Source: Gammaproteobacteria bacterium
GTDB lineage: Bacteria; Pseudomonadota; Gammaproteobacteria; Arenicellales; UBA868
Direction of reading: 5' to 3'
Assembly (NCBI GenBank): GCA_014239255.1
Contig: JAAZZE010000008.1
Span: forward strand, 1-59,877
Length of the DNA: 59,877 nucleotides
Shown here: piece after piece, positions 4,351 to 49,340 of the stretch
How the letters are laid out: each line of letters opens with the position of its first letter
How positions within the stretch are numbered: the first letter of the stretch is position 1
Notes under the pieces: generated by a model
What the model saw: the letters and a program-made list of their open reading frames with translations, nothing else
Told to the model about the DNA's origin: nothing
The model's database searches: none
Translations under genes and position numbers: made by a program

Positions 4351-4839
4351 ATGTCGCCAGCTGAGGGGAAACCCACGCGAGCGGCTATTGTCGCCATGAA
4401 CGCAGCGCGAGTCATTGGGCATGACGGCACGCTGCCATGGCATTACTCTGAAGACCTCAAACGCTTCAAACGCCTGACCACCGGCAGCACCATCGTGATG
4501 GGCCGAAACACTTTTGAGTCCATCGGCAGCAAACCCCTACCCAAACGTGACAACCGGGTAGTGACGCGATCGCATTTTGATAACGTCGACTGCTTTACGT
4601 CACTCGAATCCGCTATCACGGATTGTCCGGGAGACATCTGGTTCATCGGTGGCGCCAAACTCTACGAAGCTGCGCTTGGTTACTGCGACTTCATTGATGT
4701 GATGTGGGTGCCGGATGAGGTCACGGGTGATGATCTCGTCTATTTTCCAGAGCTACCTCCATCGGACTGGCGGGCTGGTTCCAAAACCCCGCTCGCGGAA
4801 GATAACCGATTGATTAGCCAGCGGTTCTACCGTCGGTAG
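4351..4839 (+). CDS. folA: dihydrofolate reductase
   Basis: NADPH-dependent reduction of dihydrofolate to tetrahydrofolate. The N-terminal AIVAMNAARVIGHDGTLPWH segment contains the substrate and Met20-loop region, DLKRFKRLTTGSTIVMGRNTFESIG is the cofactor-binding hallmark, and WFIGGAKLYEAAL is the conserved GG-containing NADPH loop. The 162-residue length is normal. It sits 5 bp after thyA and 2 bp before uvrD, so the three are probably cotranscribed. Cotranscription with thyA is common and balances folate oxidation and reduction. Confidence 0.97.
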   Translation: MSPAEGKPTRAAIVAMNAARVIGHDGTLPWHYSEDLKRFKRLTTGSTIVMGRNTFESIGSKPLPKRDNRVVTRSHFDNVDCFTSLESAITDCPGDIWFIGGAKLYEAALGYCDFIDVMWVPDEVTGDDLVYFPELPPSDWRAGSKTPLAEDNRLISQRFYRR

Positions 4840-4841
4840 CG

Positions 4842-7025
4842 ATGGACGTCTCTAAAATTTTCGACGCCCTGAACGACCCGCAGCGCGAGGCCGTGGGTGC
4901 CCCACCCGGACCCATGCTGGTGTTGGCTGGTGCTGGCAGCGGAAAAACGCGGGTATTAACCTACCGGATCGCGTATCTCGTACAGGCACTTGAGGTCTCC
5001 CCCTACTCGATCCTGGCAGTGACCTTTACCAACAAGGCCGCCAACGAAATGCGAAAACGCATCGAGGGTTTTTTAGGCTTTTCGGTGCGGGGGATGTGGA
5101 TCGGGACTTTTCACGGCCTGTCACACCGCATCCTGCGAGACCATCATGAACTCGCAGGGCTGCCGAAGGGATTTGAGATCCTGGATTCAGACGATCAGTA
5201 CCGCGTCATCCGGCGTGCCCTAAAAGAGCTCAATCTAGACGAGGGCTACTGGCCACCACGCCAAATCCAGTGGTTTATCAACAGCCAAAAAGAAGAAGGT
5301 CGGCGGGCGACTCAGGTTCAGGACAATGGAGACAGTCACCAACAGACCCTCATCCGGGTGTATACCCATTACGAGGAAACCTGCCAACGTCTTGGGCTAG
5401 TCGATTTTGCGGAACTGCTGCTGCGCACCCTCGAACTTCTGGAACAAACACCGTCGCTGCTGGACAACTACCAGCAGCGCTTTCAGCACATCCTGGTAGA
5501 TGAATTCCAGGACAGCAACGCCATTCAATACCGCTGGCTCAAACTGCTGGCCGAGGCCCATGCGCAGATCACCGCCGTCGGAGATGACGATCAGTCGATC
5601 TACGGCTGGCGGGGTGCGCGGGTCGAGAACATGAACCAACTACAGCAGGATTTCTCCGGCACCCAGGTAATCCGGCTCGAACAGAACTATCGCTCTAGTG
5701 GCAATATCCTGAATGCGGCAAACGCGGTCATCGACCAGAACACCGGACGCCTCGGTAAAAACCTCTGGACCGAGGGCGAGGACGGGGAACCCATCAGGGT
5801 TTACGGGGCGATGGACGAACTGGATGAAGGACGCTTTGTCATCGATCGAATTCAGGCGTGGCAGGGCCAAGGCCGGCGCCGTGACAGCATCGGCATTTTG
5901 TATCGCTCCAATGCGCAGTCGCGCGTTTTTGAAGAACTCCTGCTGTCCCAGGGGATTCCGTACCGGGTGTACGGCGGACTGCGCTTTTTTGAGCGCGCCG
6001 AGATCAAGGACGCCTTGGCTTACCTGCGGCTCGTGACCAACCGTGACTCCGACCCTGCTTTCGAGCGGGTGGTTAACGTACCGCCACGCGGCATTGGCGC
6101 GCGCACTGTCGAGATCGTACGTCAGCAGGCCCGCACTGACCGCACCTCACTGTGGACCGGCGCACAATCCTTATGCGCATCCGATGCCCTGCCGGGCCGA
6201 GCCAAAAGCGCGTTGAGCGCCTTCATTTCCCTGATTGAACAACTGGCACGGGACGCCGCCGATCATGACCTGCCGGAAAAAATCGATCTCGCCATCAGCC
6301 GCAGCGGTCTTATAGACCATTACCGCAAAGAACGCGGCGAAAAAGCCATCACGCGCGTTGAAAACCTTGAAGAGCTCGTCAGCGCCGGGCGCAACTTTGA
6401 AACCGAGGCAGAAGAAGACGACACCCTCGATGAGCTCTCGAATTTTCTCGCTCACGCAGCGCTTGAAGCCGGTGAGGGCCAAGCGGCCGAGTGGGAGGAC
6501 TGCGTGCAGCTGATGAGCCTGCACTCCGCAAAAGGCCTCGAGTTCCCGCTGGTGTTTTTGTGCGGCATGGAAGAAGGGCTCTTCCCCCATCAGCGCTCCA
6601 TCGATGAGCCCGGCGGTCTCGAAGAAGAGCGCCGGCTCTGTTATGTGGGCATGACCCGCGCCATGGAGCAGCTGTATCTCACCTGCGCCGAAGTACGCCG
6701 CCTTTATGGCCGCGATAACGCGACAAGTCCCTCGCGTTTTCTATCAGAGATTCCGGAAGGTCTGATGGAGGATGTCCGTGCCGGCGCCGGGCTTCGCACC
6801 CGCGCCGTCAAAAAAACCAATCCCAATATTGCTCACATCAACAAGGCCAACGGTAGCTCACCTACGGCATTACGCCTTGGCGCCACCGTCCAGCACAAGA
6901 AATTCGGACTTGGCACCGTGGTGATGATCGAGGGTCAGGGCGAGCACGCAAGAGTGCAGGTCCAGTTTGAGCAAGCCGGCAGTAAATGGCTGGTCTTAGC
7001 CTACGCCAATCTCGAGCCGGCCTGA
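4842..7025 (+). CDS. uvrD: DNA helicase II (UvrD)
   Basis: ATP-dependent 3'-5' superfamily 1A helicase for nucleotide excision and mismatch repair. Visible motifs in order: Walker A AGAGSGKT (about residue 30), motif Ia TFTNKAANEMRKR, Walker B DEFQDSN, motif III GDDDQSIYGWRGA, motif IV region QNYRSS, motif V LMSLHSAKGLEF and motif VI RRLCYVGMTRA. The C-terminal 50 residues form a small Tudor-like fold (GATVQHKKFGLGTVV...), as in E. coli UvrD. The 727-residue length matches UvrD (720) better than Rep (673). It starts 2 bp after folA. It converges with the molybdoenzyme gene at the left edge of the catabolic island. Confidence 0.97.
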   Translation: MDVSKIFDALNDPQREAVGAPPGPMLVLAGAGSGKTRVLTYRIAYLVQALEVSPYSILAVTFTNKAANEMRKRIEGFLGFSVRGMWIGTFHGLSHRILRDHHELAGLPKGFEILDSDDQYRVIRRALKELNLDEGYWPPRQIQWFINSQKEEGRRATQVQDNGDSHQQTLIRVYTHYEETCQRLGLVDFAELLLRTLELLEQTPSLLDNYQQRFQHILVDEFQDSNAIQYRWLKLLAEAHAQITAVGDDDQSIYGWRGARVENMNQLQQDFSGTQVIRLEQNYRSSGNILNAANAVIDQNTGRLGKNLWTEGEDGEPIRVYGAMDELDEGRFVIDRIQAWQGQGRRRDSIGILYRSNAQSRVFEELLLSQGIPYRVYGGLRFFERAEIKDALAYLRLVTNRDSDPAFERVVNVPPRGIGARTVEIVRQQARTDRTSLWTGAQSLCASDALPGRAKSALSAFISLIEQLARDAADHDLPEKIDLAISRSGLIDHYRKERGEKAITRVENLEELVSAGRNFETEAEEDDTLDELSNFLAHAALEAGEGQAAEWEDCVQLMSLHSAKGLEFPLVFLCGMEEGLFPHQRSIDEPGGLEEERRLCYVGMTRAMEQLYLTCAEVRRLYGRDNATSPSRFLSEIPEGLMEDVRAGAGLRTRAVKKTNPNIAHINKANGSSPTALRLGATVQHKKFGLGTVVMIEGQGEHARVQVQFEQAGSKWLVLAYANLEPA

Positions 7026-7070
7026 TCGCAACGCTAATTCTGGCGAACGCCTAACTCCAAGAAAGACGCG

Positions 7071-9338
7071 CTATTGAGGGGCATATTCTGTTCCCTCGGG
7101 CTCAATATCGACGAGGCAAGAATGTGCGATGGGGCCTTGGCCGAGCTTGGATGTGCCTTTGTCGAGGCAGAGTACGTTGGGATTGCCTTGTCGGCACAAT
7201 CCCGTGTCGCCCTTTATATCCACCCAAGCGCCGGTGCTGATCTGGATCACACCTTGACGGATGTCTTCTGAAAGAACTGCCGCGCAGAGGCAGGCCCCGC
7301 GGCGGTTGAACACTCTGATGATATCGTGCTGTCTGATCCCTCGCGTAGCGGCATCTGCAGGGTGCAACAGGGCGGGTTCATATCCGGCGATGCGATCTGC
7401 CTGAGAAATCCGCCCACAATCAAGTTGGCTATGCAGTTTGTTTTTCGGCTGGTTGGAGATCAGGTGCAGCTGTCCTTTCCTGGCATGTCCCAGCCATTCC
7501 GCCGGGTCCATCCAGATTGGGTGGCCGGAACAATCGCCATAACCAAAACCCGCGATCCGTTCCGAAAATATCTCAATCTTGCCACTTGGCGTACGAAGCT
7601 TGTGCGCCTCCGGATCAGCTCTGAAATCTTCAAGCATGACGTGCGGTGCTTCCGGCACAGGCAGCTTGTGCCAGCCTTTGGCACGTAATTGATCAAACGG
7701 CGGCAGTTCAACCTTGGCCTGCGCGGCGGATTGGCGTGAGGCATCGTAAAGCCACCTGATCCACTCCCCGGCATCGCGCCCCTCGGTATACGTTTCTTCG
7801 ATGCCCAGATGTTGGGCGATACCCCGGAAAATATCGTAGTCGTCTCGCGCCTGTCCTGCGGGCGCCACCGCCTGATCCATCATCACCAGATAGGGATCGC
7901 GTGGCGACAGGTTAATGTCATTACGTTCCAGCGGTGTGGTGCAGGGCAGGACAATATCAGCGTGTTGCGCGAGGGCGTTCCAACACCAATCGTTGACGAT
8001 CACCGTTTCGGGCCTGGCCCAGGCACGGCGCAGACGGTTCAGGTCCTGGTGGTGATGGAACGGGTTGCCACCGGCCCACCAGACTAACCGCGTGTCGGGA
8101 TAGGTGTGGGTTTTACCGTTGTAATCAAATGAGCCGCCGGGACTTTCCAAAAGGTCCGTAATGCGCGCCACGGGGATGAAAGTTTTGACCTTGTTGTGTC
8201 CCTGTGGCAGCGCCTGAAACCGGGGTGACGCACGCTCCAGCCCGACGGTATTTGTTGCACCATAGCCAAATCCGATACCACCACCAGGCAGACCAATCTG
8301 CCCCAGCATGGCGGCCAGGACCGTGCCCAGCCAGAACGGTTGTTCGCCGTGATCTTGCCGGGTCAGCGCCCAGGCAACCGAGATCATCGTACGCCCCCCG
8401 GCCATTCGGCGCGCCAGATTGCAGATTGTTTCAGCGGATAGTTCGCAGATGTCAGCGGCCCAATCTGCGGTTTTGGCAACGCCATCGGTCTCGCCGGTCA
8501 GATATGCTGCAAATTCGTCAAAACCAACCGTACAACGGTCGAGAAATGTGCGGTCTGCCAAATCTTCGCTCAATAAAACATACGCCAGGCCGATCATCAG
8601 CGCGGCATCGGTTGATGGTCGGGGCGCCAGCCAATCTGCCTCAAGTGCCTCTGGAATATCTGATCTGAGTGGCGAGATGTTGATGAAATCAACGCCAGCA
8701 GCTTTTGCTTCCAGTAAGGCGGGGCCGGTACGGTGCGCGCCCACCCCGCCTTGTCCAACGACTGCGTTTTTGAGCGGCAGCCCGCCAAAAGCCACCATCA
8801 GATCGCAATCATTGATAATTGATTGCCAGCTGGTCGCGCCGTAGATGAACTCCGCACCGCCCAGCACATGCGGCAGGATCACTTCGCCAGCGGCCAAGCT
8901 GTAGGTGTTTACCGATTTGGTAAAACCACCCATGAGGTTCAAAAACCGCTTAAGGTGGCCTTGCGCATGGTGGAACCTCCCCGCGCTGGCCCAGCCATAG
9001 GACCCGGCAAAGATGCTTTCGTTGCCATGGGTGTCGATCACGCGGCGCAATTCTGTGGCAACCAGGCGCTCGGCCTCGTCCCAGCCGAGCTCGACAAAAT
9101 CATCCTTGCCGCGCAACGCGCCTGCCGTGCCCGGACCACCCTCCAGCCAGCTTTTGCGCACCATCGGGGCGGTGATCCGGTCAGGGCCGTTCAGCACACC
9201 AACATAGCCTTGCCCAATGGGGGATGGATCAGGATCTTCCTCGAACGGATGCAGGGCCACAACCTCATCATCCCGTGTCTCAACCCGATAGGTACCCCAG
9301 TGGAAGCTGGTCAGCGGGTATACATCACGATTTGTCAA
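7071..9338 (-). CDS. cytoplasmic DMSO-reductase-family molybdoenzyme (BisC/DMSO reductase-like)
   Basis: Bis-MGD molybdoenzyme of the DMSO/TMAO/biotin sulfoxide reductase group, 755 residues. Residues Y114 and W116 in GSYGWASAGR and S147 in NTYSLAAGEV fall at the same numbers as the active-site Tyr, Trp and Mo-ligating Ser of periplasmic DMSO reductase. TMAO reductases are known to lack that Tyr, so a sulfoxide substrate is favoured (inference). There is no twin-arginine signal and no iron-sulfur CxxC motif at the N terminus, so it should be cytoplasmic and fed by a soluble donor, like BisC. It starts at TTG (9338) with an AAGGATCAGG-like site upstream. It lies directly after a broken thiolase gene and ends the minus-strand catabolic operon. 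Confidence 0.88.
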   Translation of the reverse strand: MTNRDVYPLTSFHWGTYRVETRDDEVVALHPFEEDPDPSPIGQGYVGVLNGPDRITAPMVRKSWLEGGPGTAGALRGKDDFVELGWDEAERLVATELRRVIDTHGNESIFAGSYGWASAGRFHHAQGHLKRFLNLMGGFTKSVNTYSLAAGEVILPHVLGGAEFIYGATSWQSIINDCDLMVAFGGLPLKNAVVGQGGVGAHRTGPALLEAKAAGVDFINISPLRSDIPEALEADWLAPRPSTDAALMIGLAYVLLSEDLADRTFLDRCTVGFDEFAAYLTGETDGVAKTADWAADICELSAETICNLARRMAGGRTMISVAWALTRQDHGEQPFWLGTVLAAMLGQIGLPGGGIGFGYGATNTVGLERASPRFQALPQGHNKVKTFIPVARITDLLESPGGSFDYNGKTHTYPDTRLVWWAGGNPFHHHQDLNRLRRAWARPETVIVNDWCWNALAQHADIVLPCTTPLERNDINLSPRDPYLVMMDQAVAPAGQARDDYDIFRGIAQHLGIEETYTEGRDAGEWIRWLYDASRQSAAQAKVELPPFDQLRAKGWHKLPVPEAPHVMLEDFRADPEAHKLRTPSGKIEIFSERIAGFGYGDCSGHPIWMDPAEWLGHARKGQLHLISNQPKNKLHSQLDCGRISQADRIAGYEPALLHPADAATRGIRQHDIIRVFNRRGACLCAAVLSEDIRQGVIQISTGAWVDIKGDTGLCRQGNPNVLCLDKGTSKLGQGPIAHSCLVDIEPEGTEYAPQ

Positions 9339-9351
9339 AACCTGATCCTTT

Positions 9352-9511
9352 TCAACAAACTTCGATCCACCCGGGGTCTACCCCTGCACGCTCAACCGCG
9401 TGCTGAATGGCGTGACCCATCATGGTAGGGGATTTGATCTTGTTCAATGCACCCTTTAAGGCAACCTCAATAGGGGTTCCCTGCGGTCGAGACGATAACG
9501 GATTCTCTCAT
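9352..9511 (-). pseudogene. thiolase N-terminal remnant (frameshifted, about 85 percent deleted)
   Basis: The ATG at 9511 overlaps the stop of the CoA ligase gene by 4 bp (ATGA), as expected for a coupled operon gene. It encodes MRESVIVSTAG, then a +1 or -1 slip within the GGGAACCCC stretch. In the other frame, down to the stop at 9352, it reads GTPIEVALKGALN, SPTMMGHAIQHAVERAGVDPG and so on. This matches the N terminus of acetyl-CoA acyltransferases (MREAVIVSTARTPIG... then AVERAGVDPxEI). Only about 53 of about 390 codons remain, and the sequence then runs straight into the molybdoenzyme leader. The active-site Cys region is gone, so the gene is dead. It shows that the operon once contained a thiolase and that a deletion joined it to the molybdoenzyme gene. 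Confidence 0.85.
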
Positions 9512-11610
9512 GATCTCATCCTTACTAAGGCATCAACTGCAGTGCAGTTCCCAGCCGCATCCAGGATGATGGGATTCACATCCAACTCCACCAGCCTGTC
9601 ACGATATTGAGTGGTGAATTCGACAATTTGACTGACCGCTTTGACCACTGCGGGTATGTCGCGTTGGTCCAGCCGCAGCTTGCGGGCCAGGCTAAGCCCG
9701 CGTACCGCTTCGTCGATTTGCGCCACACTTGCAGGTAGCAGCAGTGTAGTGAAATCCTTCAGCTCTTCGACGTCGATTCCACCGCGCCCAATCACCAGTG
9801 CATGACCGATCCCCGGTTTGTAGCTGACCCCAGCAATGAATTCACTGCGCGGGGCGACCACCATGCGTTCGATCAGGAAATGACCGGTGTCGAGGCTGGC
9901 GTCATACCGGCTGACAGAGGCTTGAATGGCGCTGATTGCTTGCTCTACACCTGCTGCGTCTTTGATATCCAGATGTACAGCCCCGGCGTGGTTCTTATGC
10001 GCCAGATCAGCATTGAGCAGTTTGACCGCCAGCGGATACCCAAGACTGTCTGCGGCGGCAATGACCTCCTCGGCTGTGCCTGTCGCGTGGTTCGTGGCCA
10101 GTACGCCATGTTGCGCAAGTAGGGCTTTGCCTTCGGCCTCGTTCAGCGTGATCACTGGTTGAGCTGTACTGGTCAGAACAGGCAACAAACGGCTCTCAGG
10201 ATCGGCCAGAATCTGCGCACGCAAAACGGGATAGCGCACCGCTACGCTGAGCGCGCTGAGCGTGTCGTCCAACCCTTGCAGTGTGACCACCCCTGCATCG
10301 GCCAGCCGGAGACGCAGATCAGCCGGCAAACCATCGGGCAAGACACTGGCGATCACCACGGGGCAATCCATGCGGTCGTTCAACTGGATCAGCCCCGCAA
10401 GCGTCCACCACCAGACATCGGCCACATCCGGATCACGTGGCCAGTCAACAAAGTAGACGAGAAGATCACAGCGATCATCCATCATAATGCCCAGACCATT
10501 GTCCGAGGTTTCCGGTGTCGACATCGCCGCCCACGGCAGGTTCCAGTCTAGCGGGTTCATCAGAGAAACCAGCTCTGGGACGGTCTGACGCAGCTTATCC
10601 CGCTGGGTTTCAGTCGGCGCAGGAAATTCCAGCCCGGCATCGCGCCCTTTTTCCCCGATCATTGCGGCGTAACCGCCGGAATTGGCTGCGGCCACAATGC
10701 GGTTGCCTTTGGGGGGCTTGGGGCTGCCCAACAATTTGAGCGCCTCAATCAGCGCCTTGGGGGAGCCTGCTTCGACAATTGCGAACCGACGGAAAAGTGC
10801 TGACCAGATTTCGTTGTCCACAGCCAAGGTGCCGGAATGGCTTTGCGCCAGTTCAGCACTTTCCTGCGTGCCACCCGCCTTCAGCGCCACAAGCGGCACA
10901 CCCTGTTTCACTGCACGCAGGGCGGCCATGCTGAACGCGGCTATATCCACGATCCCTTCAAGGTAGAGTCCGATGGCGCGCACGCGGGGATCATCCAGCA
11001 TAACGTCAATGTAATCGGCAACATTCAGCACGGCCTGATTGCCCATCGAAATTGCATAGCCCAGCGGCAGGGCCTGCTCAACATTGGTCACCGAATAGGC
11101 GACATAACCCGACTGGCTAATCAGGGCGACACCATCACCCATAACAGGCGAAAACACGTTGTCACCGCCCCAGACCGCCACGCCATCAAACATGTTCATC
11201 ACGCCCAGGCAGTTCGGGCCAACAACCGCCAGTTCATCTGCCGCCGCAACCAGCCGGGCCTGTAGAGCTGCGCCAGCCTCACCAGTTTCCGCGAATTCGC
11301 CGACTATGGACACCGCCCCGCCAGCCCCCATAGCATTAAGTTCGGCCACCACGTCTACCGTACGCTCGCGCGATACGGCGATCAGGGCGGCATCGGGCGG
11401 CTCGGATAAATCCGCAAGGCTGGGTACGCAAGCGACGCCGGCGAGTTCCGTGTATTCCGGATGCACCGCCCAGATTTGCCCGGTAAAGCCAGATTTACGG
11501 GTAGCATTGATACAACCTTCTATCGCTCGCCCACCCACAAAAGCGATGTGGCGTGGGGTGAGAAGCCGTTTCAGATTGGTCCGGCGCCTGGCCTCTGCAC
11601 AGTCTTTCAT
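9508..11610 (-). CDS. NDP-forming acyl-CoA ligase (acetate-CoA ligase ADP-forming family)
   Basis: Single-chain fusion of succinyl-CoA-synthetase-like alpha and beta parts, 700 residues. The N-terminal CoA-binding Rossmann domain (IAFVGGRAIEG...) is followed by ligase-CoA domains with the phospho-His loop QSHSGTLA near residue 260. A C-terminal ATP-grasp domain holds GYPLAVKLLNADLAHKNHAGAVHL and ELDVNPIILD. Such enzymes make or use acyl-CoA with ATP/ADP and serve for acetate, propionate or other short acids. It overlaps the upstream methyltransferase gene by 4 bp and the downstream thiolase remnant by 4 bp. In the island it is the likely CoA-activation step. The substrate is unknown. Confidence 0.88.
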   Translation of the reverse strand: MKDCAEARRRTNLKRLLTPRHIAFVGGRAIEGCINATRKSGFTGQIWAVHPEYTELAGVACVPSLADLSEPPDAALIAVSRERTVDVVAELNAMGAGGAVSIVGEFAETGEAGAALQARLVAAADELAVVGPNCLGVMNMFDGVAVWGGDNVFSPVMGDGVALISQSGYVAYSVTNVEQALPLGYAISMGNQAVLNVADYIDVMLDDPRVRAIGLYLEGIVDIAAFSMAALRAVKQGVPLVALKAGGTQESAELAQSHSGTLAVDNEIWSALFRRFAIVEAGSPKALIEALKLLGSPKPPKGNRIVAAANSGGYAAMIGEKGRDAGLEFPAPTETQRDKLRQTVPELVSLMNPLDWNLPWAAMSTPETSDNGLGIMMDDRCDLLVYFVDWPRDPDVADVWWWTLAGLIQLNDRMDCPVVIASVLPDGLPADLRLRLADAGVVTLQGLDDTLSALSVAVRYPVLRAQILADPESRLLPVLTSTAQPVITLNEAEGKALLAQHGVLATNHATGTAEEVIAAADSLGYPLAVKLLNADLAHKNHAGAVHLDIKDAAGVEQAISAIQASVSRYDASLDTGHFLIERMVVAPRSEFIAGVSYKPGIGHALVIGRGGIDVEELKDFTTLLLPASVAQIDEAVRGLSLARKLRLDQRDIPAVVKAVSQIVEFTTQYRDRLVELDVNPIILDAAGNCTAVDALVRMRS

Positions 11611-12749
11611 CCTTTGTACGCCATCGCCTCGATGCCACGGGGGATTTTCTTGTCGGGATCAAAGAAAGGTAATTGGTGCAGGGTCAGATTATGCTGGGCG
11701 CCCATCCTGTCCTTCACGGTGAAAGCGTCAGCCACCATGGCATCGGCACTGTCAAACAGAACATATCCAATGCCTGTGCCCAGCGTTGGTGAAGGCTCGA
11801 ACGCTTTGACGCGACCCACGGGGTGTTCGCCGACAAAGACCGGCGCGTTCCATTTCACGTCTGCCGCGCCGGTCACAAAACCGGAGAAGCGAGGGGCCTG
11901 TGGTGCGACCTGCAAAGAATCGCGCCCGACGAAGTCATGCTCAAAATCTACAAACATACCCAAGCCCAGATCAAACGGCGTGGTGTCCCAGCCCATGTCG
12001 GTGCCGTAGTTCAGAATGCCCGCCTCGATCCGGCGTGGGTTCATGGCGTAGGTCGACAAGATCTCCATCCCAAGCGGTGCGCCCGCCGCCATAAGGTGGG
12101 ACCACAGCGCCACACCATCTACGTTCGGGTCCATGTTGTAAACTTCAAAACCCTTCTCAGCAGTCCAGCCCGTCCGGCTGATCAGAACCTTTTGTCCGCC
12201 AACCGTGACTTGCCGCGCGTGGTAATACTTGAACCCTTCTGGCGCGCCACCATCAACACAGGCGTCAAGGATATCCAAGCTGGTTGGCCCTTGAATCTGG
12301 ATCGCCCAGGCCTGCGGGTCGCGAATCTTTACGTCGTGGCCGAACTTCAAAGCGTTCAGCCATGTGAACACATCGCGATCCGCGTGTACGTACCAGAACC
12401 AGTCTTCGGCCAAACGGAACACCACACCATCACAGGCGATGCCTCCATCATCGTGGCACATCAGCCCATAGCGACCCCGATCAACGGCCATGGTGCTGAC
12501 CTTTCGGGTGAAGACGTAATCCAGAAATGCCCCCGCGTCCGGGCCACGAATTTCCAACGGGCGTTCGGGCACATCAAAGATACCCGCGCGAGTGCGCAAA
12601 ACGCGATATTCATCGGCAATAGGGCGTTCAAAGATCACAGGTGTCAGCCGCCCTTCGTGATCTCCGTAAGCCGTTGTCAAATCGCGCGTCGCCTTAAACC
12701 AGGGCGATCGCGCGCAGCTTGAGATTATGGGAAGTACCAATCCGGCCAT
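11607..12749 (-). CDS. DmdA/GcvT-family tetrahydrofolate-dependent methyltransferase
   Basis: Protein of the glycine-cleavage T / DMSP demethylase (DmdA) / LigM superfamily, 380 residues. The folate-binding domain is seen in AGIFDVPERPLEIRGPDAG (about 56-73), IQIQGPTSLDILDA and ISRTGWTAEKGFEVY. The C-terminal barrel contains LGLGMFVDFEHDFVGRDSL and HPVGRVKA. In true T-protein the motif GGVIDD carries the catalytic Asp; here it reads GGIACD (C106, D107), and DmdA has Asn at that place, so glycine cleavage is unlikely. A role in moving a methyl group from a sulfonium, amine or ether substrate to tetrahydrofolate is inferred. It starts at the ATG at 12749 with AAGGAG upstream and overlaps the CoA ligase gene by 4 bp. 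Confidence 0.85.
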   Translation of the reverse strand: MAGLVLPIISSCARSPWFKATRDLTTAYGDHEGRLTPVIFERPIADEYRVLRTRAGIFDVPERPLEIRGPDAGAFLDYVFTRKVSTMAVDRGRYGLMCHDDGGIACDGVVFRLAEDWFWYVHADRDVFTWLNALKFGHDVKIRDPQAWAIQIQGPTSLDILDACVDGGAPEGFKYYHARQVTVGGQKVLISRTGWTAEKGFEVYNMDPNVDGVALWSHLMAAGAPLGMEILSTYAMNPRRIEAGILNYGTDMGWDTTPFDLGLGMFVDFEHDFVGRDSLQVAPQAPRFSGFVTGAADVKWNAPVFVGEHPVGRVKAFEPSPTLGTGIGYVLFDSADAMVADAFTVKDRMGAQHNLTLHQLPFFDPDKKIPRGIEAMAYKG

Positions 12750-12780
12750 ACCATGGCTCCTTTGGCTTGATTGCTAACTT

Positions 12781-14430
12781 CTAACCGGGCAGGGCGCGGG
12801 TGATGATTGCGTCCAGATCACACCCTGAGGGAAGCGTGCCAAATGCTCCGCGATAACGCGCAGCCAAACGCGAGGCGCAGAAGGCTTCGGCTACCTCTGG
12901 TGCGCCGTGGCTGGTCAAAAGAGCGCCTTGCAGGGTCAGCGCCATCATCTCGGTGATCATGCGCATGCGGCCTTCAATCCCGTCAGTATTGGCCAGTTCA
13001 TCGCGCAGGTCATCAATGGCACGATCAAGGTTGGAGTGGTTTCCACGCGCCTTCTCTAGTTCCGCCATCAGGGCGGGGATCGCCTCGACTTCGCGCCCCA
13101 TGGCGCGCATGACATCCAGCCCCATGACATTGCCAGACCCTTCCCAGATCGAGTTTAGCGGCGCCTCCCGGTAGAGCCGGGGCATGATGCTTTCCTCAAC
13201 ATAGCCCGGACCGCCATGGCATTCGAGCGCTTCAACCACAAGCGAAGGACAGCGTTTGGTGTTCCAGTATTTCGCCACCGCCGTGGCGATACGTGCCAAT
13301 GCCGCTTCGGCCGGATCATCGAAATTGTCCATGGCACGCGCCACGCGCAGGCCAAAGGCTAGCGCGGCCTCAGCCTCGACCGCCATATCAGCCAGAACAT
13401 TTTGCATCAATGGTTGCTGGATCAGCCGTTTTTGAAAGGCCGACCGATGCGATGTATGATGCAACGCCTGCACCAGCGCCTGCCGCATGATCCCGGCCGA
13501 GGACATGGCGCAGTAAAGCCGGTTGCCGATAACCATCTCGATGATCGTGCGGATGCCACGCCCTTCCTCGCCCACCATCACGCCGTAGGTGTCCTGAAAC
13601 TCCATCTCGGTCGAGGCGTTGGATTTATTACCCAGCTTGTCCTTCATCCGCTGGATAAACAGATTGTTGCGTGTGCCATCGAGCCGCCAACGCGGAACGA
13701 GGAAACAGGAAATCCCCATGCCGTCAGTATTGGCCAACACCAGAAACGCATCAGACATCGGGGCCGAGCAAAAGAATTTGTGTCCGGTCAGAAGATAGCC
13801 ATCACCATCCGGCACAGCCACGGTCGAATTGGCTCGCACATCCGATCCGCCCTGTTTTTCGGTCATGAACATACCGATCATCGCGCCGGTTTTTTCCTCC
13901 ACCGGAATGTCGCGCCTGTCATATTGCGTGGACAGGATGCGCGGCATCCATTCCTGTGCCACGAACGGCGCCATACGCAGCGACGGTACAACGGAATAGG
14001 TCATAGCCATCGGGCACATCACGCCGCCTTCGGGCTGGCTGAACATATAGGTCAGAACAGACTGGCCCACATGCCCTGCATTGCCCTCATAATGCCAGGC
14101 AAAATTATGCACTTTGTTGGAAATCGCGAGGTCCATCAAATCATGATAGGCAGGATGAAACTCAACCGCATTGATCCGCATGCCGTGGCGGTCAAACGCA
14201 CGCAATTCCGGCCCATGACGATTGGCCTGACCCGCCTTCTCAAAGGTCTCATCCAACCCCGTCAGTCGTCCAACATGCGCCAGATGGTCAATATGGCCTG
14301 CGCCGCCCTCGACTTTGGTCCAATGGCGCAGAGCCCGGTCATCCTGCCAGAGGTCCTGATCCCCCATATGCGGCGGCATGTTGATAACCTCGTGGGTTGG
14401 CAACTGTGCAATTGGATCGCGTGGTGTCAT
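12781..14430 (-). CDS. AidB-like acyl-CoA dehydrogenase
   Basis: FAD-dependent acyl-CoA dehydrogenase superfamily member closest to E. coli AidB. It shares the long blocks VHNFAWHYE, MTEKQGGSDVRANST, KDKLGNKSNASTEMEFQD, IQQPLMQNVLADMA and LYREAPLNSIWEGSGN. The start used is the ATG at 14430, which has GGGAGA 8 nt upstream; it gives 549 residues, against 541 in AidB. An upstream in-frame start at 14508 has no ribosome site. AidB itself is tied to alkylation response, but relatives such as DmdC oxidise acyl-CoA in DMSP catabolism. Beside a DmdA-like methyltransferase and CoA ligase, a catabolic role is preferred (inference). It is divergent from the LysR gene, which probably controls it. Confidence 0.87.
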   Translation of the reverse strand: MTPRDPIAQLPTHEVINMPPHMGDQDLWQDDRALRHWTKVEGGAGHIDHLAHVGRLTGLDETFEKAGQANRHGPELRAFDRHGMRINAVEFHPAYHDLMDLAISNKVHNFAWHYEGNAGHVGQSVLTYMFSQPEGGVMCPMAMTYSVVPSLRMAPFVAQEWMPRILSTQYDRRDIPVEEKTGAMIGMFMTEKQGGSDVRANSTVAVPDGDGYLLTGHKFFCSAPMSDAFLVLANTDGMGISCFLVPRWRLDGTRNNLFIQRMKDKLGNKSNASTEMEFQDTYGVMVGEEGRGIRTIIEMVIGNRLYCAMSSAGIMRQALVQALHHTSHRSAFQKRLIQQPLMQNVLADMAVEAEAALAFGLRVARAMDNFDDPAEAALARIATAVAKYWNTKRCPSLVVEALECHGGPGYVEESIMPRLYREAPLNSIWEGSGNVMGLDVMRAMGREVEAIPALMAELEKARGNHSNLDRAIDDLRDELANTDGIEGRMRMITEMMALTLQGALLTSHGAPEVAEAFCASRLAARYRGAFGTLPSGCDLDAIITRALPG

Positions 14431-43851: not shown

Positions 43852-45417
43852 TTAGAAATCTGTCGGGGAGCCGCCCTCACTTTTGCGTTTTACAACAAAA
43901 GCTTCAAGTTCTTCACGCGCCCCTAAGTCCATGGGGGGTGGCTGATACTGCGCAAGGACTTCCTTGAAAATACGGTTGGCTCGCCCGGGAGTCTCGACGG
44001 CGCCTGCTTGCTCCCAGTTCTCGAAGTTACTCCAATCGGATAGAAACGGACTGTAAAAAGCGCTCTTGTAACGTGACCGCGTATGCTCTGCACCAAGAAA
44101 ATGCCCAGTGGGCCCAACGGCACGAATAGCTTCGAGGGCAAGGTCTTCATCGGTTATGCCGATAGGTTGGTGGTAATAACTCAACTGCTGCAGCAATTCA
44201 CAGTCAATAATGAACTTCTCAAAGCTTGCGCATAGGCCGCCCTCCATCCATCCCGCGGCATGATAAACAATGTTCGCGTTAGCACTGGAGCACGCCCACA
44301 GTGAAGCCGCGCTCTCCCAGGTGGCCTGGGCATCGACACAATTAGCTGCGTTGGCATTAGACGCACGCCAGGGCAGGCCATAGTACCGCGCCATCTGCCC
44401 TGACATCTGCGTGGCGCGTACATATTCAGGTGTTCCAAAAGCGGGTGCTCCTGACTTCATATCTACGTTAGAGGTAAACGATCCGTAGGCGACCGGAACA
44501 CCGGGGCGCACCAGTTGCAGCAGGGTAACCGCCGCCAGACATTCGGCGGTCTGCTGTGCGATTGCTCCTGCCAGCGTAATGGGTGCCATCGCGCCAGCCA
44601 GCGTAAAAGGCGTAATAATGACCAGCTGGTTGTGTCGCGCCAGACGCATGGCACCATCCAGCATAGGCCAATCGTGCTTCAATGGCGAAGAAGAATTGAT
44701 ATTGGTAAACATCCGAGGAGCCTGTTCAAACGTCTCCTGATCCAGGCCCGCCGCAATGCGTACCATAGCCATAGCATCCTCGACACGCTCAACGCCCAGA
44801 GAATAAGCGTGCACCAGCTTGTCTGTCAGTGTCAGCAGGTCGAACAGGCAATCGAGGTGGCGAATCGATGGGTGCAAGTCAACTGGCTCGACCGGGTAAC
44901 CGCCAGTGAAATGAATACACTCGAAACTTTGTGCCAGCTTCAATAGATTCTGGTAATCGGCGCGATTACCGACCCGTCGACCATGATCAAGATCCGAGAC
45001 ATTGGGTGGACTGGAAACCAAACCAAAAGCGGCGTAGGTTCCCCCAAATACAAGCGCGCGGTCTGGATTGCGCGGCGTCATTACGATGCGCTTCGGCGCC
45101 TTGGCCACTTGCTCCATCACCAGGGCACGATCCATGCGCACGGTTACAGAATCCTTTTTTACGTCACAGCCTGACTGGGCGAGAATTTCCCGGGCATCAT
45201 CGTGCAAAAAATCGATGCCAATCTCCTCGAGGATATGCATCGCCGCGTTATGAATTTTGTCGATACCCTCAGCATCCAAAGGCTCAATCGGGGTATCGAG
45301 GTATTGTGGTTGGCCCCAGGGTAACTGGACCAGCCCACGTGCCGGCGCGGTTGTACGACCTTTACGTCGACGAGCAGCGCGTGGCATCGCTGAAGAAGGT
45401 TCAGTGGAATCAGTCAT
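43852..45417 (-). CDS. trimethylamine methyltransferase (MttB) superfamily, non-pyrrolysine type
   Basis: 521 residues of the MttB superfamily, ending with the motif-rich barrel NAANCVDAQATWESAASLWACSSANANIVYHAAGWMEGGLCASFEKFIID near residues 350-400. No in-frame stop is read through, so it lacks pyrrolysine; relatives such as MtgB use glycine betaine or other quaternary amines and need a corrinoid protein and MtaA/MtgA partner. None of these partner genes is next to it. Basic N-terminal residues before the barrel are not conserved. The substrate is unknown. It lies next to the decayed integrative element and would originally have followed moaB (inference). Confidence 0.88.
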   Translation of the reverse strand: MTDSTEPSSAMPRAARRRKGRTTAPARGLVQLPWGQPQYLDTPIEPLDAEGIDKIHNAAMHILEEIGIDFLHDDAREILAQSGCDVKKDSVTVRMDRALVMEQVAKAPKRIVMTPRNPDRALVFGGTYAAFGLVSSPPNVSDLDHGRRVGNRADYQNLLKLAQSFECIHFTGGYPVEPVDLHPSIRHLDCLFDLLTLTDKLVHAYSLGVERVEDAMAMVRIAAGLDQETFEQAPRMFTNINSSSPLKHDWPMLDGAMRLARHNQLVIITPFTLAGAMAPITLAGAIAQQTAECLAAVTLLQLVRPGVPVAYGSFTSNVDMKSGAPAFGTPEYVRATQMSGQMARYYGLPWRASNANAANCVDAQATWESAASLWACSSANANIVYHAAGWMEGGLCASFEKFIIDCELLQQLSYYHQPIGITDEDLALEAIRAVGPTGHFLGAEHTRSRYKSAFYSPFLSDWSNFENWEQAGAVETPGRANRIFKEVLAQYQPPPMDLGAREELEAFVVKRKSEGGSPTDF

Positions 45418-45763
45418 AGATAGGCCTGGGCTCTCTAACAGGCTTCACTATCCAGTTGAACAAGCGCATGGGCAATCCACCAGAGCGTCCCGTATTGTTC
45501 TTGTCGGGACTTTCCGCGCATCAATTGTCGGAAAGCCATGGGTGTTCTGCTGATCGGCCGATGCTGACTTGGCGAAGATTCCTGGGTCTCTAGCAGTGTT
45601 CCAGCAGGCGTGGCATCAGCTCAACCAGGTTACACGGTCGGGTTCGGTAATCCAGCTGGAACTGCAACAACTTGTCCCAGGCCGTAGCACAGGCGCTATC
45701 TCAAGTTATATTTGATGTACTTCATGTTCTTGTCTCAATTGTGTACACACTTGGGAGAAGAAT
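45418..45763. other. intergenic region with the moaB 3' end duplicate
   Basis: About 345 bp upstream of the integrase. The first 175 bp hold no recognisable gene. The segment 45594-45695 is a diverged copy of the moaB 3' end (separate entry). The remaining 68 bp before the integrase start contain GGGAGAAG as its ribosome site. Confidence 0.6.
45594..45695 (-). repeat. displaced moaB 3' end (attachment-site duplication)
   Basis: On the minus strand this codes for ACATAWDKLLQFQLDYRTRP, CNLVELMPRLLEH and a stop. That is the last 34 codons of MoaB, and the intact gene at 48720-48833 is about 80 percent identical in DNA with mostly silent changes. Both copies point the same way and flank the integrase region. 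A 22-bp identical core lies at 45633-45654 and 48769-48790. The pattern fits integration into the 3' end of moaB, with the element replacing the end of the gene and leaving the old end here. Confidence 0.85.
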
Positions 45764-46654
45764 ATGGGAAGCATCCGAGTACGAGAAGGCCGTTATCAGG
45801 CCAATGTTAGACGCAAAGGTTACGCGCCAGTAACCGCCACCTTTACCAGCCGTGAAGTAGCCAAGCGGTTCATTAAATCCACAGAGATCGCAATGGAGCG
45901 CGGCGATTATGCGCCACGCAGTTCTTTGACTGTGGGCGAACTGATGCAGAAGTACGAGAACGAGTATCTACCAACCTTGAAGAATGGTGGTGATTCCCAC
46001 AAGTGGCGAGTACGGTTACTCAAGAGATACTTTAAAGACTTACCACTGGCTGACTTAACACCAGCGCATCTTGCAAAGTACCGTGATAAACGGGTACTCA
46101 AGGTTGCGCCACTGACAGTAAAGCGTGATCTGTCGGTCTTATCATCAGCAATCAACACCGCTGTCATGGAATGGGATGTTCCACTTGATCTAAATCCTGT
46201 ATCACGGATCAGATTTAAGAACGCAGATGTTCCACGGGACAGGCGATTGCAACATGGGGAAGAAGAATTACTTTTGAGTGAGGCATATCCATGTCTAAAA
46301 CGCCAAATTATCGTAGCGATAGAAACAGCAATGCGTCAGGGGGAGATTTATAGCATCAAGAAAAGTGATATTAATGCTCAGAATCAAACGCTTCAAATCC
46401 CTGAAACTAAGACCGACAGGCCCAGAACAATCCCATTGTCCAAAAGGGCATTAAAAGCCCTTACAGACCAAATAGGAGCGTCTGGCAATGTAATTCAACT
46501 GTCTGATCGACCAATATTTGATGTCAACAGGTGGACTGAGTGGAACAGGTTTACAAGACTCAAGGAACAATGCGGTATTGAGGATTTACGCTTCCATGAT
46601 TTACGCCATGAAGCCACATCGAGGTTATTTGAGCGGGAGACAGGACAGTACTGA
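45764..46654 (+). CDS. truncated tyrosine site-specific integrase
   Basis: Phage-type integrase lacking its C terminus. Residues 1-60 hold an arm-type DNA-binding start (RVREGRYQANVRRKGYAP), residues 60-150 the SAM-like core-binding domain, and then the catalytic domain with the first Arg (ETAMRQGEIYSI) and HDLRHEATSRLFER. The sequence departs after LFER and stops at 46654, so the second His/Trp and the Tyr nucleophile are missing. Normal relatives run on another 35-45 residues. It cannot catalyse recombination. The promoter side is 68 bp from the moaB fragment, the usual att-int distance. Confidence 0.85.
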   Translation: MGSIRVREGRYQANVRRKGYAPVTATFTSREVAKRFIKSTEIAMERGDYAPRSSLTVGELMQKYENEYLPTLKNGGDSHKWRVRLLKRYFKDLPLADLTPAHLAKYRDKRVLKVAPLTVKRDLSVLSSAINTAVMEWDVPLDLNPVSRIRFKNADVPRDRRLQHGEEELLLSEAYPCLKRQIIVAIETAMRQGEIYSIKKSDINAQNQTLQIPETKTDRPRTIPLSKRALKALTDQIGASGNVIQLSDRPIFDVNRWTEWNRFTRLKEQCGIEDLRFHDLRHEATSRLFERETGQY

Positions 46655-46770
46655 TACAGGGGGCAATCGCTTAATTCGCAACGCTCTACTTGCATTCGCC
46701 AAGTACCGTCATCCAGTTCATCAAAGCAACATTCTCGGCACATAGCTTCTATGGCTTTCTGTCTGGTCAT
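46640..46770 (-). pseudogene. truncated phage-type Cys-rich small gene
   Basis: From the ATG at 46770 the minus strand encodes MTRQKAIEAMCREC then CFDELDDGTWRMQVERCELSDCPLYQYCP. This resembles small phage proteins with a CxxC...CPLY zinc-type set that normally end in a VRP-like tail. After about residue 44 the frame continues only as antisense of the integrase. Both genes therefore lost their ends at one junction near 46630-46660. The stop in the antisense part lies at 46495. Confidence 0.6.
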
Positions 46771-47087
46771 TACTTTCTCTCTCCTGTAACAGGAATAGCC
46801 AGCAATCCCATAAAGGGTGATGTTCTGGGGTCAGGTGCAAGTAAGCCCCGCATAGGTTGGACATAGCGTGGTACTGACCTACGTTGCTGTGGACGTTGCA
46901 CTGGTCCACGAGGTTTACGCTGTGCCAAGTGTTGCTCCGCTACTTTGTTGAGAGCTTCTTGTGTTTTGTGTTGCTTCTGAATCTCAGCAACCTTTGCTCT
47001 GTACTCTTCTTCAGTCATACCCCGATCACTGATGGGCTTTACATCAATCTTCAGTCCAGTTTGGACCAGTTTCTTTTTTTGATTCAT
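46770..47087 (-). CDS. small basic protein of the integrative element, unknown
   Basis: 105 residues, rich in Lys, Arg, Gln and Pro, with RAKVAEIQKQHKTQEALNKVAEQHLAQRK as a likely helix. Its stop overlaps the ATG of the Cys-rich gene, so the two were cotranscribed. It resembles small hypothetical genes of phages or satellites, but no name can be given. Confidence 0.6.
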   Translation of the reverse strand: MNQKKKLVQTGLKIDVKPISDRGMTEEEYRAKVAEIQKQHKTQEALNKVAEQHLAQRKPRGPVQRPQQRRSVPRYVQPMRGLLAPDPRTSPFMGLLAIPVTGERK

Positions 47088-47721
47088 CTCAAATTTCCTT
47101 GCCGAAATGGCATAGATGACCCTTCGCGGCCTGTTGAGGGGCCGCTACGGGTCTGGTTAAAAGTGTTTAACGATTCAGATTTGAGTCTTATGAGAGGCTA
47201 TGTTGCGATAGTCTCTATAGGCTCAAGAATTCACCTGTAGAGGTTCTTACGATAACCCTCTACAAGCACTATCCCTGTACTGGCTACCCCTACCGTAAGG
47301 AAGCATTAATCACAGATCTGATGTCCTCACACTCCCGATTTATAGGAGGTTCCCTATAAGGACGATTTATTCAGATCTACCCTCTTCTATAAGGGAGCAT
47401 TAATCCTTAACTGTCGATACTCTCTATAGGCGGGTAAATTCAACTATAGACATTCTAGGTGGGAAAACGGAGTTTATGAGGATGGTGGAAATGGGGAGTA
47501 ATAGTCCTTTACACGCATAGCGCAAGACTTACAGAGCATAAGCTACTCTGCTCACAGTGCTGGTCACCAACCAGAATTACTCACCCATACGATGACTCAT
47601 ATCAGATCATCGCCCACCATCTTTTATTTTTACCCCCCCCAATTTTTCCCAACCCCAAAATTTTGGAATGCTCTTTTTAGCCCATCCGGACCTAGTTGAG
47701 TTTACGAGACGAAAAATCACG
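47088..47721. other. noncoding segment of the element with repeats and homopolymer runs
   Basis: About 630 bp without a credible gene. It holds an interrupted hairpin at 47118-47150 (CGCGGCC and GGCCGC arms), the repeat cluster at 47206-47456, a C8 run near 47633 and the 12-bp palindrome CCAAAATTTTGG at 47655-47666. It may include the element's origin or an operator set. Confidence 0.6.
47206..47456. repeat. imperfect direct-repeat cluster, iteron- or operator-like
   Basis: Two copies of a 42-bp unit beginning CGATA-TCTCTATAGGC lie at about 47206 and 47415, about 32 of 42 bases alike. Two copies of AAGGxAGCATTAATC lie near 47297 and 47391. TATAGG-like palindromic cores recur at 47341 and 47353. 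The arrangement looks like protein-binding repeats of a replicon or regulator. No initiator gene is intact nearby. Confidence 0.6.
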
Positions 47722-48285
47722 TTACCCAATGGGCAGGTTCAAAGTTTTTAACTCGGCCTCACGAAGTGGCAAATCGGAGCTGAGGAAAAACTCGTCAAGC
47801 TGCGGCGGCGCCACTGACGTTGCCGAAAGCATGTCGTGCACCTGAGCACGATGGTGAATCTGGTGCGTGAACAAATGCGCAAGCACGCTCCAGACAGCCT
47901 CCGTGTACTGTGTACCGTCTAAAAGTTTGAACGACACCGTTGAGGAAAGGGTTTCGGGCGTCACAGTCTCGCAGTATTCGATCAGCGTTCTATCGGCAGT
48001 CACCTGATCCTCCACTATTGAAGCGAGTTCGCTGTGCAATTCGTTCCCAACCTTGCCGGGCAGGTACTGCTCTCCTGTTAAGCGTTCTAAGTAGAGCCAA
48101 TCTACGAAAACGATGTGATCGAGGTGGATGTGAATTGAGCCGAAAAAGCTAGGGCGGTTAGCGTAGTACTCCGAGGCAGGCAGGTGCAAACATGCTGAAT
48201 GCAGGCGATTATTACTCCAGTGGTTGTTTCTGGCTTGGGCTATGAGGTAATCGCCAAGTTCAGGACGCAACGTGTTCCCAGTCAT
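47722..48285 (-). CDS. DinB-family protein
   Basis: Four-helix-bundle DinB/YfiT-type protein. HLDHIVFVDWLYLERL near residue 50 and HLFTHQIHHRAQVHDMLSATSVAPPQLDEFFL in the C-terminal third supply the His metal ligands typical of thiol transferase or DinB folds. The preferred ATG is at 48285 (MTGNTLRPE). No partner is visible. It is inside the integrative element or just at its edge, so it may be cargo. The physiological role is unknown. Confidence 0.85.
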   Translation of the reverse strand: MTGNTLRPELGDYLIAQARNNHWSNNRLHSACLHLPASEYYANRPSFFGSIHIHLDHIVFVDWLYLERLTGEQYLPGKVGNELHSELASIVEDQVTADRTLIEYCETVTPETLSSTVSFKLLDGTQYTEAVWSVLAHLFTHQIHHRAQVHDMLSATSVAPPQLDEFFLSSDLPLREAELKTLNLPIG

Positions 48286-48719
48286 CCTTTGATCCTCGCT
48301 GTTTTCCATTACTCTTTTAAAAGTTTAACTGAGGTCAAATATTCTTGTGGACGAATATGTATAAAACTAACAGAACTAGTACTACCGCCTTATATTTTTT
48401 CTCCTCCTTTTTTTGAAATGCTCAAAATCTTCCGATGGTGAGTGGAAGAGATATAACGTAATACGATACATCGATGATGGGGTCGGGTGGGGGTCTGTCC
48501 TGTCCTGTTGACGCTGTTCGACCATATAGCGTGTCTGAATATAGTACGCAAACACATTCAGACATTCAGACAAATTAGGTCATTAAAGGGTAGGGTAGAA
48601 ACAGATAGAACATCATCATCAAACAAAATGTAGTAACGATAATTGCAATGCAATTACGCAGTAGAAATTAAATCGAAATTACAGTACCTTATAGGCTCGC
48701 GACAACGGAATGGAAATGA
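48286..48719. other. AT-rich noncoding segment before moaB
   Basis: About 430 bp, AT-richer than the core genes, with short tandem repeats (ACATTCAG twice near 48552, CTGTC twice near 48497). No gene on either strand is supported. It is the right part of the element; moaB ends at 48720 with its imported 3' end. Confidence 0.5.
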
Positions 48720-49253
48720 TCAAGCCTGTCGGTGTTCCAGCAATCTAGGCATCAGTTCAACTAGATTGCACGGTCGGGTTCGGTAATCCAACTGGTGTAC
48801 CAATAGCTTGTCCCAGGCGGTCGCACAGGCACCGGAGGATCCTGGCAGGCAGAAAAGATAGGTGCCGTTCGCAACCCCAGCCACAGCGCGTGACTGCAAT
48901 GACGATGTGCCGATTTCCTCGTAGGATACAGCCCGAAAGATTTCACCAAAGCCATCGAGCTCTTTTTCCAGCAACGGTGTCACTGCCTCCGGGGTTCCAT
49001 CAAAGCCCGTCACGCCGGTGCCTCCGGTGGTCAGTACCACCTGAACCTCAGTATCAGCGATCCAGCGTGACACGACAGAACGAATCTGGAAGATATCGTC
49101 GGGTACGATAACTTTCTCGACAATCCGGTGGCCTACGCCCGTCAGGCGTTCGACTAACAACTTGCCCGACTTATCATCAGCTTCAGTACGCGAATCCGAT
49201 ACTGTCATCACTGCGATGGGAACCGGAACAAATTCACGGGCTTTACTGGACAT
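48720..49253 (-). CDS. moaB: molybdenum cofactor biosynthesis protein B
   Basis: MPT adenylyltransferase-type protein (MogA/MoaB/MoeA-like domain). Visible motifs: VMTVSDSRTEADDKSGKLLVERL near residue 15, VVLTTGGTGVTGFDGTPEAVTPLLEKELDGFGE near 80-115 and FCLPGSSGACATAWDKLL near 150. The ATG at 49253 (MSSKAREF) has AAGGTG upstream. The final 34 codons are the copy that appears to have been brought by the integrative element. It is divergent from moaD across about 90 bp. Confidence 0.95.
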   Translation of the reverse strand: MSSKAREFVPVPIAVMTVSDSRTEADDKSGKLLVERLTGVGHRIVEKVIVPDDIFQIRSVVSRWIADTEVQVVLTTGGTGVTGFDGTPEAVTPLLEKELDGFGEIFRAVSYEEIGTSSLQSRAVAGVANGTYLFCLPGSSGACATAWDKLLVHQLDYRTRPCNLVELMPRLLEHRQA

Positions 49254-49340
49254 GGGCAACACCTTCGCTTGTGGCTAAATAGGTCTCGCCCTATTATAGG
49301 GTTGCCATCACCTTGATTTCCTTAATACCCCGTTCCATTC

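Follow-up and report, generated by a model that had tools for sequence, protein, structure and literature searches.

The window is the whole stretch of DNA that was analyzed, 59,877 nucleotides of a gammaproteobacterial draft genome. It contains a moaB gene with an intact reading frame of 180 amino acids, which covers the TIGR02667 profile completely (1–163 of 163), and a second moaB 3′ end at 45596–45694 that has the same orientation (Table 1). The two ends are 82% identical over 99 nt (E = 3.5e-21 in a search of the window's own genome), and the translated copy is 89% identical to MoaB residues 143–177, so that most of the changes between them are silent. A tyrosine integrase open reading frame starts 67–68 bp from the duplicate end. 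An earlier reading of these letters (the sequence-only reading) had described a second moaB end of about 80% identity in the same direction, mostly silent changes and an integrase at about 68 bp, and all three observations hold.

The DNA that lies inside the moaB 3′ end, between moaB and mttB, has a GC content of 46% compared with 54% for the window. Family scans of its larger ORFs gave only the integrase and a DinB-family protein, with no relaxase or mating-pair genes, and the integrase is also its only strong PHROG match, with no phage structural or packaging genes found. The 105 aa ORF has one weak PHROG match (E = 0.006) to a family of unknown function, and scans of the element for defence genes and Rfam families were empty. 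No recognised replication or packaging-interference module was seen in the element, and its small ORFs are common to a related element. Direct repeats, imperfect and 42 and 25 nt long, occur at 47206–47456; they contain CTATAGG-like motifs and are possibly iterons or integrase arm sites.

Table 1. Features of the moaB–mttB region in the window and of related loci in other genomes of the family.
Feature	Position	Strand	Basis or remark
mttB	43852..45417	(-)	PF06253, E = 3.3e-200; host gene next after moaB at the empty site
Displaced original host moaB tail, ends in TAG, lacks a start codon	45590..45670	(-)	own-genus bases 12/14; groups with G004
Crossover core TGGGACAAG at the displaced end (attL)	45671..45679	(-)	lineage switch, core position
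Own short moaB-like arm of the element, upstream of the core (GCGCCTGTGCTACGGCC)	45680..45696	(-)	sister-genus bases 3/3 before the switch
Integrated element	45680..48806	.	3,127 bp between the two cores; missing from the matching G006 and G004 junctions
Tyrosine integrase, C-terminally truncated	45764..46654	(+)	PF00589, PHROG 1; true homology ends at ~46635
Small cysteine-rich ORF, 5′ part (MTRQKAIEAMCREC...)	46636..46770	(-)	fused by deletion to antisense integrase sequence
Small ORF, 105 aa	46770..47087	(-)	homologue beside related integrase in G028:C39, same arrangement
DinB-family cargo gene, 195 aa	47722..48309	(-)	PF05163, E = 8.9e-16
moaB	48720-49262	(-)	TIGR02667 moaB_proteo, 260.8 bits vs cutoff 222.4
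Element-derived replacement moaB tail, encodes LLVHQLDYRTRPCNLVELMPRLLEHRQA and stop	48720..48806	(-)	diagnostic bases and tail tree
Crossover core TGGGACAAG in the intact moaB (attR)	48807..48815	(-)	switch between 48816 and 48804
Native host part of moaB	48816..49262	(-)	every scorable diagnostic base own-genus; 94% to G006 over the body
dinB blocks	window 47714-48390; L050 972-1645; L118 1417-2093; L119 1458-2096
P4-type island of G013, 8 kb	L040 (G013:C256) 5700-14300		at the last moaB codons
Element-type patch, ~60 nt	L037 (G009:C63) ~8389-8480		starts at the crossover core
Integrase relatives at trmL fragment	L094 (G028:C39) 1349-2485; L102 (G032:C155) 4695-5385

The other genomes of the family, which are referred to here by G numbers, are draft assemblies in many contigs and are probably metagenome-assembled. 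The empty moaB–mttB junction that was looked for in relatives is present in two genomes of the same genus, G006 and G004, where mttB directly follows moaB; the mttB side of the window is about 93% identical to both. When the window flanks were joined in silico at the 9-bp core of Table 1, the predicted empty site aligned to G006 with 93.2% identity over 2,144 bp, unbroken through the join, and to G004 with 91.3% over 2,092 bp, also straight across the join. In G001, of the same genus, different DNA follows moaB (L033, G001:C99, 1–2780), comprising a long ORF and a short one that looks like a peptide-precursor leader, and the stretch that was read contains no mttB.

The lineage of each moaB end was followed by diagnostic bases, defined as the positions where the bases found in the moaB genes of the same genus (G006, G004, G001, and G018) do not overlap with the bases found in a sister genus of the family (G024, G028, G030, and G032). 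From the start of the intact moaB to 48816 all scorable positions are of the same-genus type, with two unassignable, and from 48804 to the end of the gene 13 of the 13 diagnostic bases are of the sister-genus type. The order is reversed in the second copy: three sister-genus positions are followed by same-genus bases at 12 of 14 sites, and the switch falls in or just before the same interval. The core in this interval is a 9-bp identity block over the Trp-Asp-Lys codons. The two exceptions (the equivalents of 48780 and 48735) are of the sister-genus type and make this tail slightly mosaic, for which shared polymorphism or conversion of one copy by the other would account. In a tree of the 84-nt tails the copy beside mttB groups with G004 (96/97) and the intact tail falls among the sister-genus rows (93/98); in a tree of the moaB bodies the window groups with G006 and G001.

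Because the diagnostic bases switch reciprocally at the core, the tail of the intact moaB derives from the element and the old tail has been displaced next to mttB, and the tail tree agrees with both parts of this claim of the sequence-only reading. That reading had also placed the crossover in a 22-bp identical block. This was wrong and the block was rejected as the core, since the lineage changes some 25 bp farther upstream, at the 9-bp core. Two of the three bases by which the 22-bp block differs from G004 are also present in G018, so that shared polymorphism or conversion can account for the identity of this block, which lies on the downstream side of the crossover.

One possible option is that the moaB 3′ end was duplicated in tandem in the host and then diverged, with the integrase standing there by chance; such an event would give two direct copies on the same strand and in the same order, as seen here. 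Yet the tails are of different genera and change type at the same point, in opposite directions, empty sites exist, and the integrase–tail arrangement recurs in other genomes. The reciprocal switch and the tail trees, which contradict an origin of both ends in one lineage, lead us to reject this option as extremely improbable, and the earlier statement that the ends are homologous and are not a tandem error stands. The pattern is the one that site-specific integration with gene-end replacement, and not tandem duplication, predicts.

A mechanism that fits the empty sites, the reciprocal switch and the trees, and that had been proposed from the sequence alone, is that site-specific recombination placed a small integrative element, which encodes a tyrosine integrase, in the moaB 3′ end and swapped its tail, and we consider it very probable. 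The bases show that the crossover took place in the 9-bp core; the element brought a moaB tail of the sister-genus lineage, leaving an intact 180-codon moaB with a foreign end, and the original tail is now found 3.1 kb away beside mttB. Since moaB remains a coding gene with its new tail, the insertion may be tolerated. On the left arm, homology to moaB extends for only 17 bp ahead of the core, as expected of a phage-type attP, and the same moaB-like arm was found in G024:C1 and G028. This short arm argues against homologous recombination that brought a moaB end together with linked sister-genus DNA and the integrase as a passenger, and so does the observation that nothing beyond the element is sister-genus chromosome and that the flank returns at once to the own-genus tail and mttB. 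The moaB of G009 (see below) does indicate that an element-type tail patch can exist without the element, but homologous recombination has hardly any probability left in the window.

The DinB protein of the window is 100% identical at the amino acid level to the copy in the sister-genus G030, which also adjoins moaB. The source genome of the window is a draft assembly in 235 contigs whose contamination is estimated at 5%, and both facts could fit with an assembly or binning chimera that joined sister-genus DNA to this genome. However, at each junction the sequence passes without a break into own-genus moaB or mttB, with the same 9-bp core as the meeting point, and G028 shows the arrangement independently on a 211-kb contig. 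Unlike in a mixed assembly, the dinB–moaB arm differs by about 20% from G030. On these grounds the chimera was rejected, and we regard it as very unlikely. The DNA of the window and of G030 is 96% identical over 894 bp around dinB and only ~75–80% identical in the moaB-adjacent arm and moaB, which points to a recent transfer of the dinB part between the genera. Relatives of dinB are also present in G004, close to tRNA-Asn, and in G024, close to a tRNA-Asn-like fragment, so that dinB appears to be a cargo of more than one element. The dinB block, of ~640–680 bp, has nearly the same limits in the elements at moaB and beside tRNA-Asn or the tRNA-Asn-like fragment.

The integrase of the window is 97% identical to a 326-aa integrase of G024 over residues 1–292 and then continues into unrelated sequence. 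The best sequence match of the full-length G024 protein among solved structures is 5c6k, named Integrase, and it has His278-xx-Arg281, His304, and Tyr313, which we take to be the catalytic set of the tyrosine recombinase family; the set is complete in the G024 sibling and incomplete in the window, where His304 and Tyr313 are absent. A related integrase (57%) in G028 (L094, G028:C39) has the same neighbours, the 105-aa ORF and the small cysteine-rich ORF (78% over 41 aa to its window counterpart), and there is about 1 kb more between the integrase and these neighbours than in the window. The absence of the two residues and the fusion of the cysteine-rich ORF to antisense integrase sequence indicate that the window copy is a deletion remnant. 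We therefore infer that the integrase acted while it was full length, as the one in G024 still is, and that after integration a deletion of ~1 kb took its last ~34 residues, including the catalytic His and Tyr. The element is probably immobile in cis because of this truncation, and the copy would now be fixed unless another integrase acts in trans. Flanking att repeats (the 9-bp core), an empty site in relatives and an intact target frame are all found in the window, and to judge by its sequence it carries a remnant of a gene-restoring integrative element and not a working member. Integration at the moaB end, as the earlier reading had it, thus stands; the inactivation of the integrase, and a second, unrelated integrase at the moaB end, were missed.

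A match to moaB was present in 26 of the 33 family genomes searched, the window included, and six of the family genomes (the window, G024, G028, G030, G032, and G013) have an element or a remnant at this gene. Other elements with a moaB tail are found in G024 and G028, and G030 and G032 add sites that are occupied or eroded. The G024 contig C1 (NTKC01000001.1) begins inside a sibling element, with the 326-aa integrase adjoining a moaB tail; in this genome element sequence follows moaB at one contig end and the integrase with the tail is at another. In a named genome collection the only strong match to the integrase was this G024 record. On its 211-kb contig G028 holds moaB, dinB (88%), an integrase in broken pieces and a moaB tail, all within ~1.4 kb, G030 has moaB and the DinB gene followed by the contig end, and G032 has an integrase fragment downstream of moaB. 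A profile built from the integrases of this analysis found no integrase in 60 moaB downstream flanks of ~3 kb that were sampled elsewhere in the class, and among the matches listed in a class-wide search for moaB tails there was no other clear orphan tail, a few short matches being possibly contig ends. No integrase relatives were found in viral contigs and no convincing match to the moaB tail in phage records, and the plasmid matches listed for the tail are moaB genes or unannotated places.

No element is present at the moaB of G009, and this moaB carries a short stretch of the element type. The moaB body is 98.6% identical between G009 and G014. Over the 59 nt that follow the core, identity to G014 falls to 78%, while the integrase-adjacent tail of G024 matches at 94.9%; beyond this patch the gene is again of the G014 type. 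Exactly such a patch would be left if, after integration, one tail recombined with the other, and we suggest that it is a probable integration scar. Another explanation is that the G009 tail was transferred without any element. It is reasonably likely that moaB-targeting elements repeatedly rewrite the moaB end across genera and leave a foreign end after their loss; such elements would act as vectors by which a conserved metabolic gene exchanges its end.

Another element is located in G013, a genome of the same genus in which moaB and mttB are 8.3 kb apart. A P4-type integrase (Arm-DNA-bind_3, PF13356) starts ~180 bp after moaB and is followed by a DUF3987 protein, a terminase small subunit and a major head protein. 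A 19-bp repeat that stems from the last codons of moaB, GCCTGCTTGAGCATCGACA, with 18 of 19 positions matching, marks both ends of the island, and the far copy runs on as the native downstream sequence seen in G011. From the position of this repeat, the crossover differs from that of the window and lies ~60 bp further downstream. The two elements are alike in their target, in the rebuilt gene end and in their place between moaB and mttB. In contrast, the G013 island has an unrelated integrase, a different crossover, and capsid and terminase small subunit genes.

It is established that attP can replace the end of a target gene, in protein genes such as icd (PMC10111431) as well as in tRNA genes, where islands of the Islander/TIGER type were summarised (PMC12884075). 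Like the icd-type elements and prophages, in which attP carries the replacement end, the identity block extends beyond the crossover and the target stays intact (PMC10111431), the window has all of these characteristics; its element differs in the target, moaB, in the length of 3.1 kb, in the lack of phage structural genes and in the disabled integrase. The tRNA islands share with it a tyrosine integrase beside one end and a gene fragment at the far end (PMC12884075), whereas the target in the window is a protein gene and the window contains no tRNA. In the open-access literature no report of moaB as an integration site was found, in line with the earlier remark that moaB 3′ ends are not a commonly cited site. 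Thus the mechanism is known and moaB appears to be unreported as a target. With moaB, a gene of the molybdenum cofactor joins the protein-coding integration sites, and within one bacterial family two integrases that are unrelated have converged on its end. The locus also offers a base-resolved case of elements exchanging a host gene end between genera, including a likely scar after loss.

The integrase relatives are not restricted to moaB; within this bacterial order they also adjoin tRNA-Pro, tRNA-Val, and a trmL 5′ fragment. With relatives beside moaB, the start of trmL and tRNA genes, this clade may be used for studying changes of integrase target. The closest full-length relative outside moaB (57%) adjoins the trmL 5′-end fragment, which belongs to another protein-coding gene. 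Other related integrases (L096, L098, L100, L101, L103–L105) have one of two tRNA genes as a neighbour: tRNA-Pro(cgg), after a polyprenyl synthase-like gene, or tRNA-Val(cac), near gltX.
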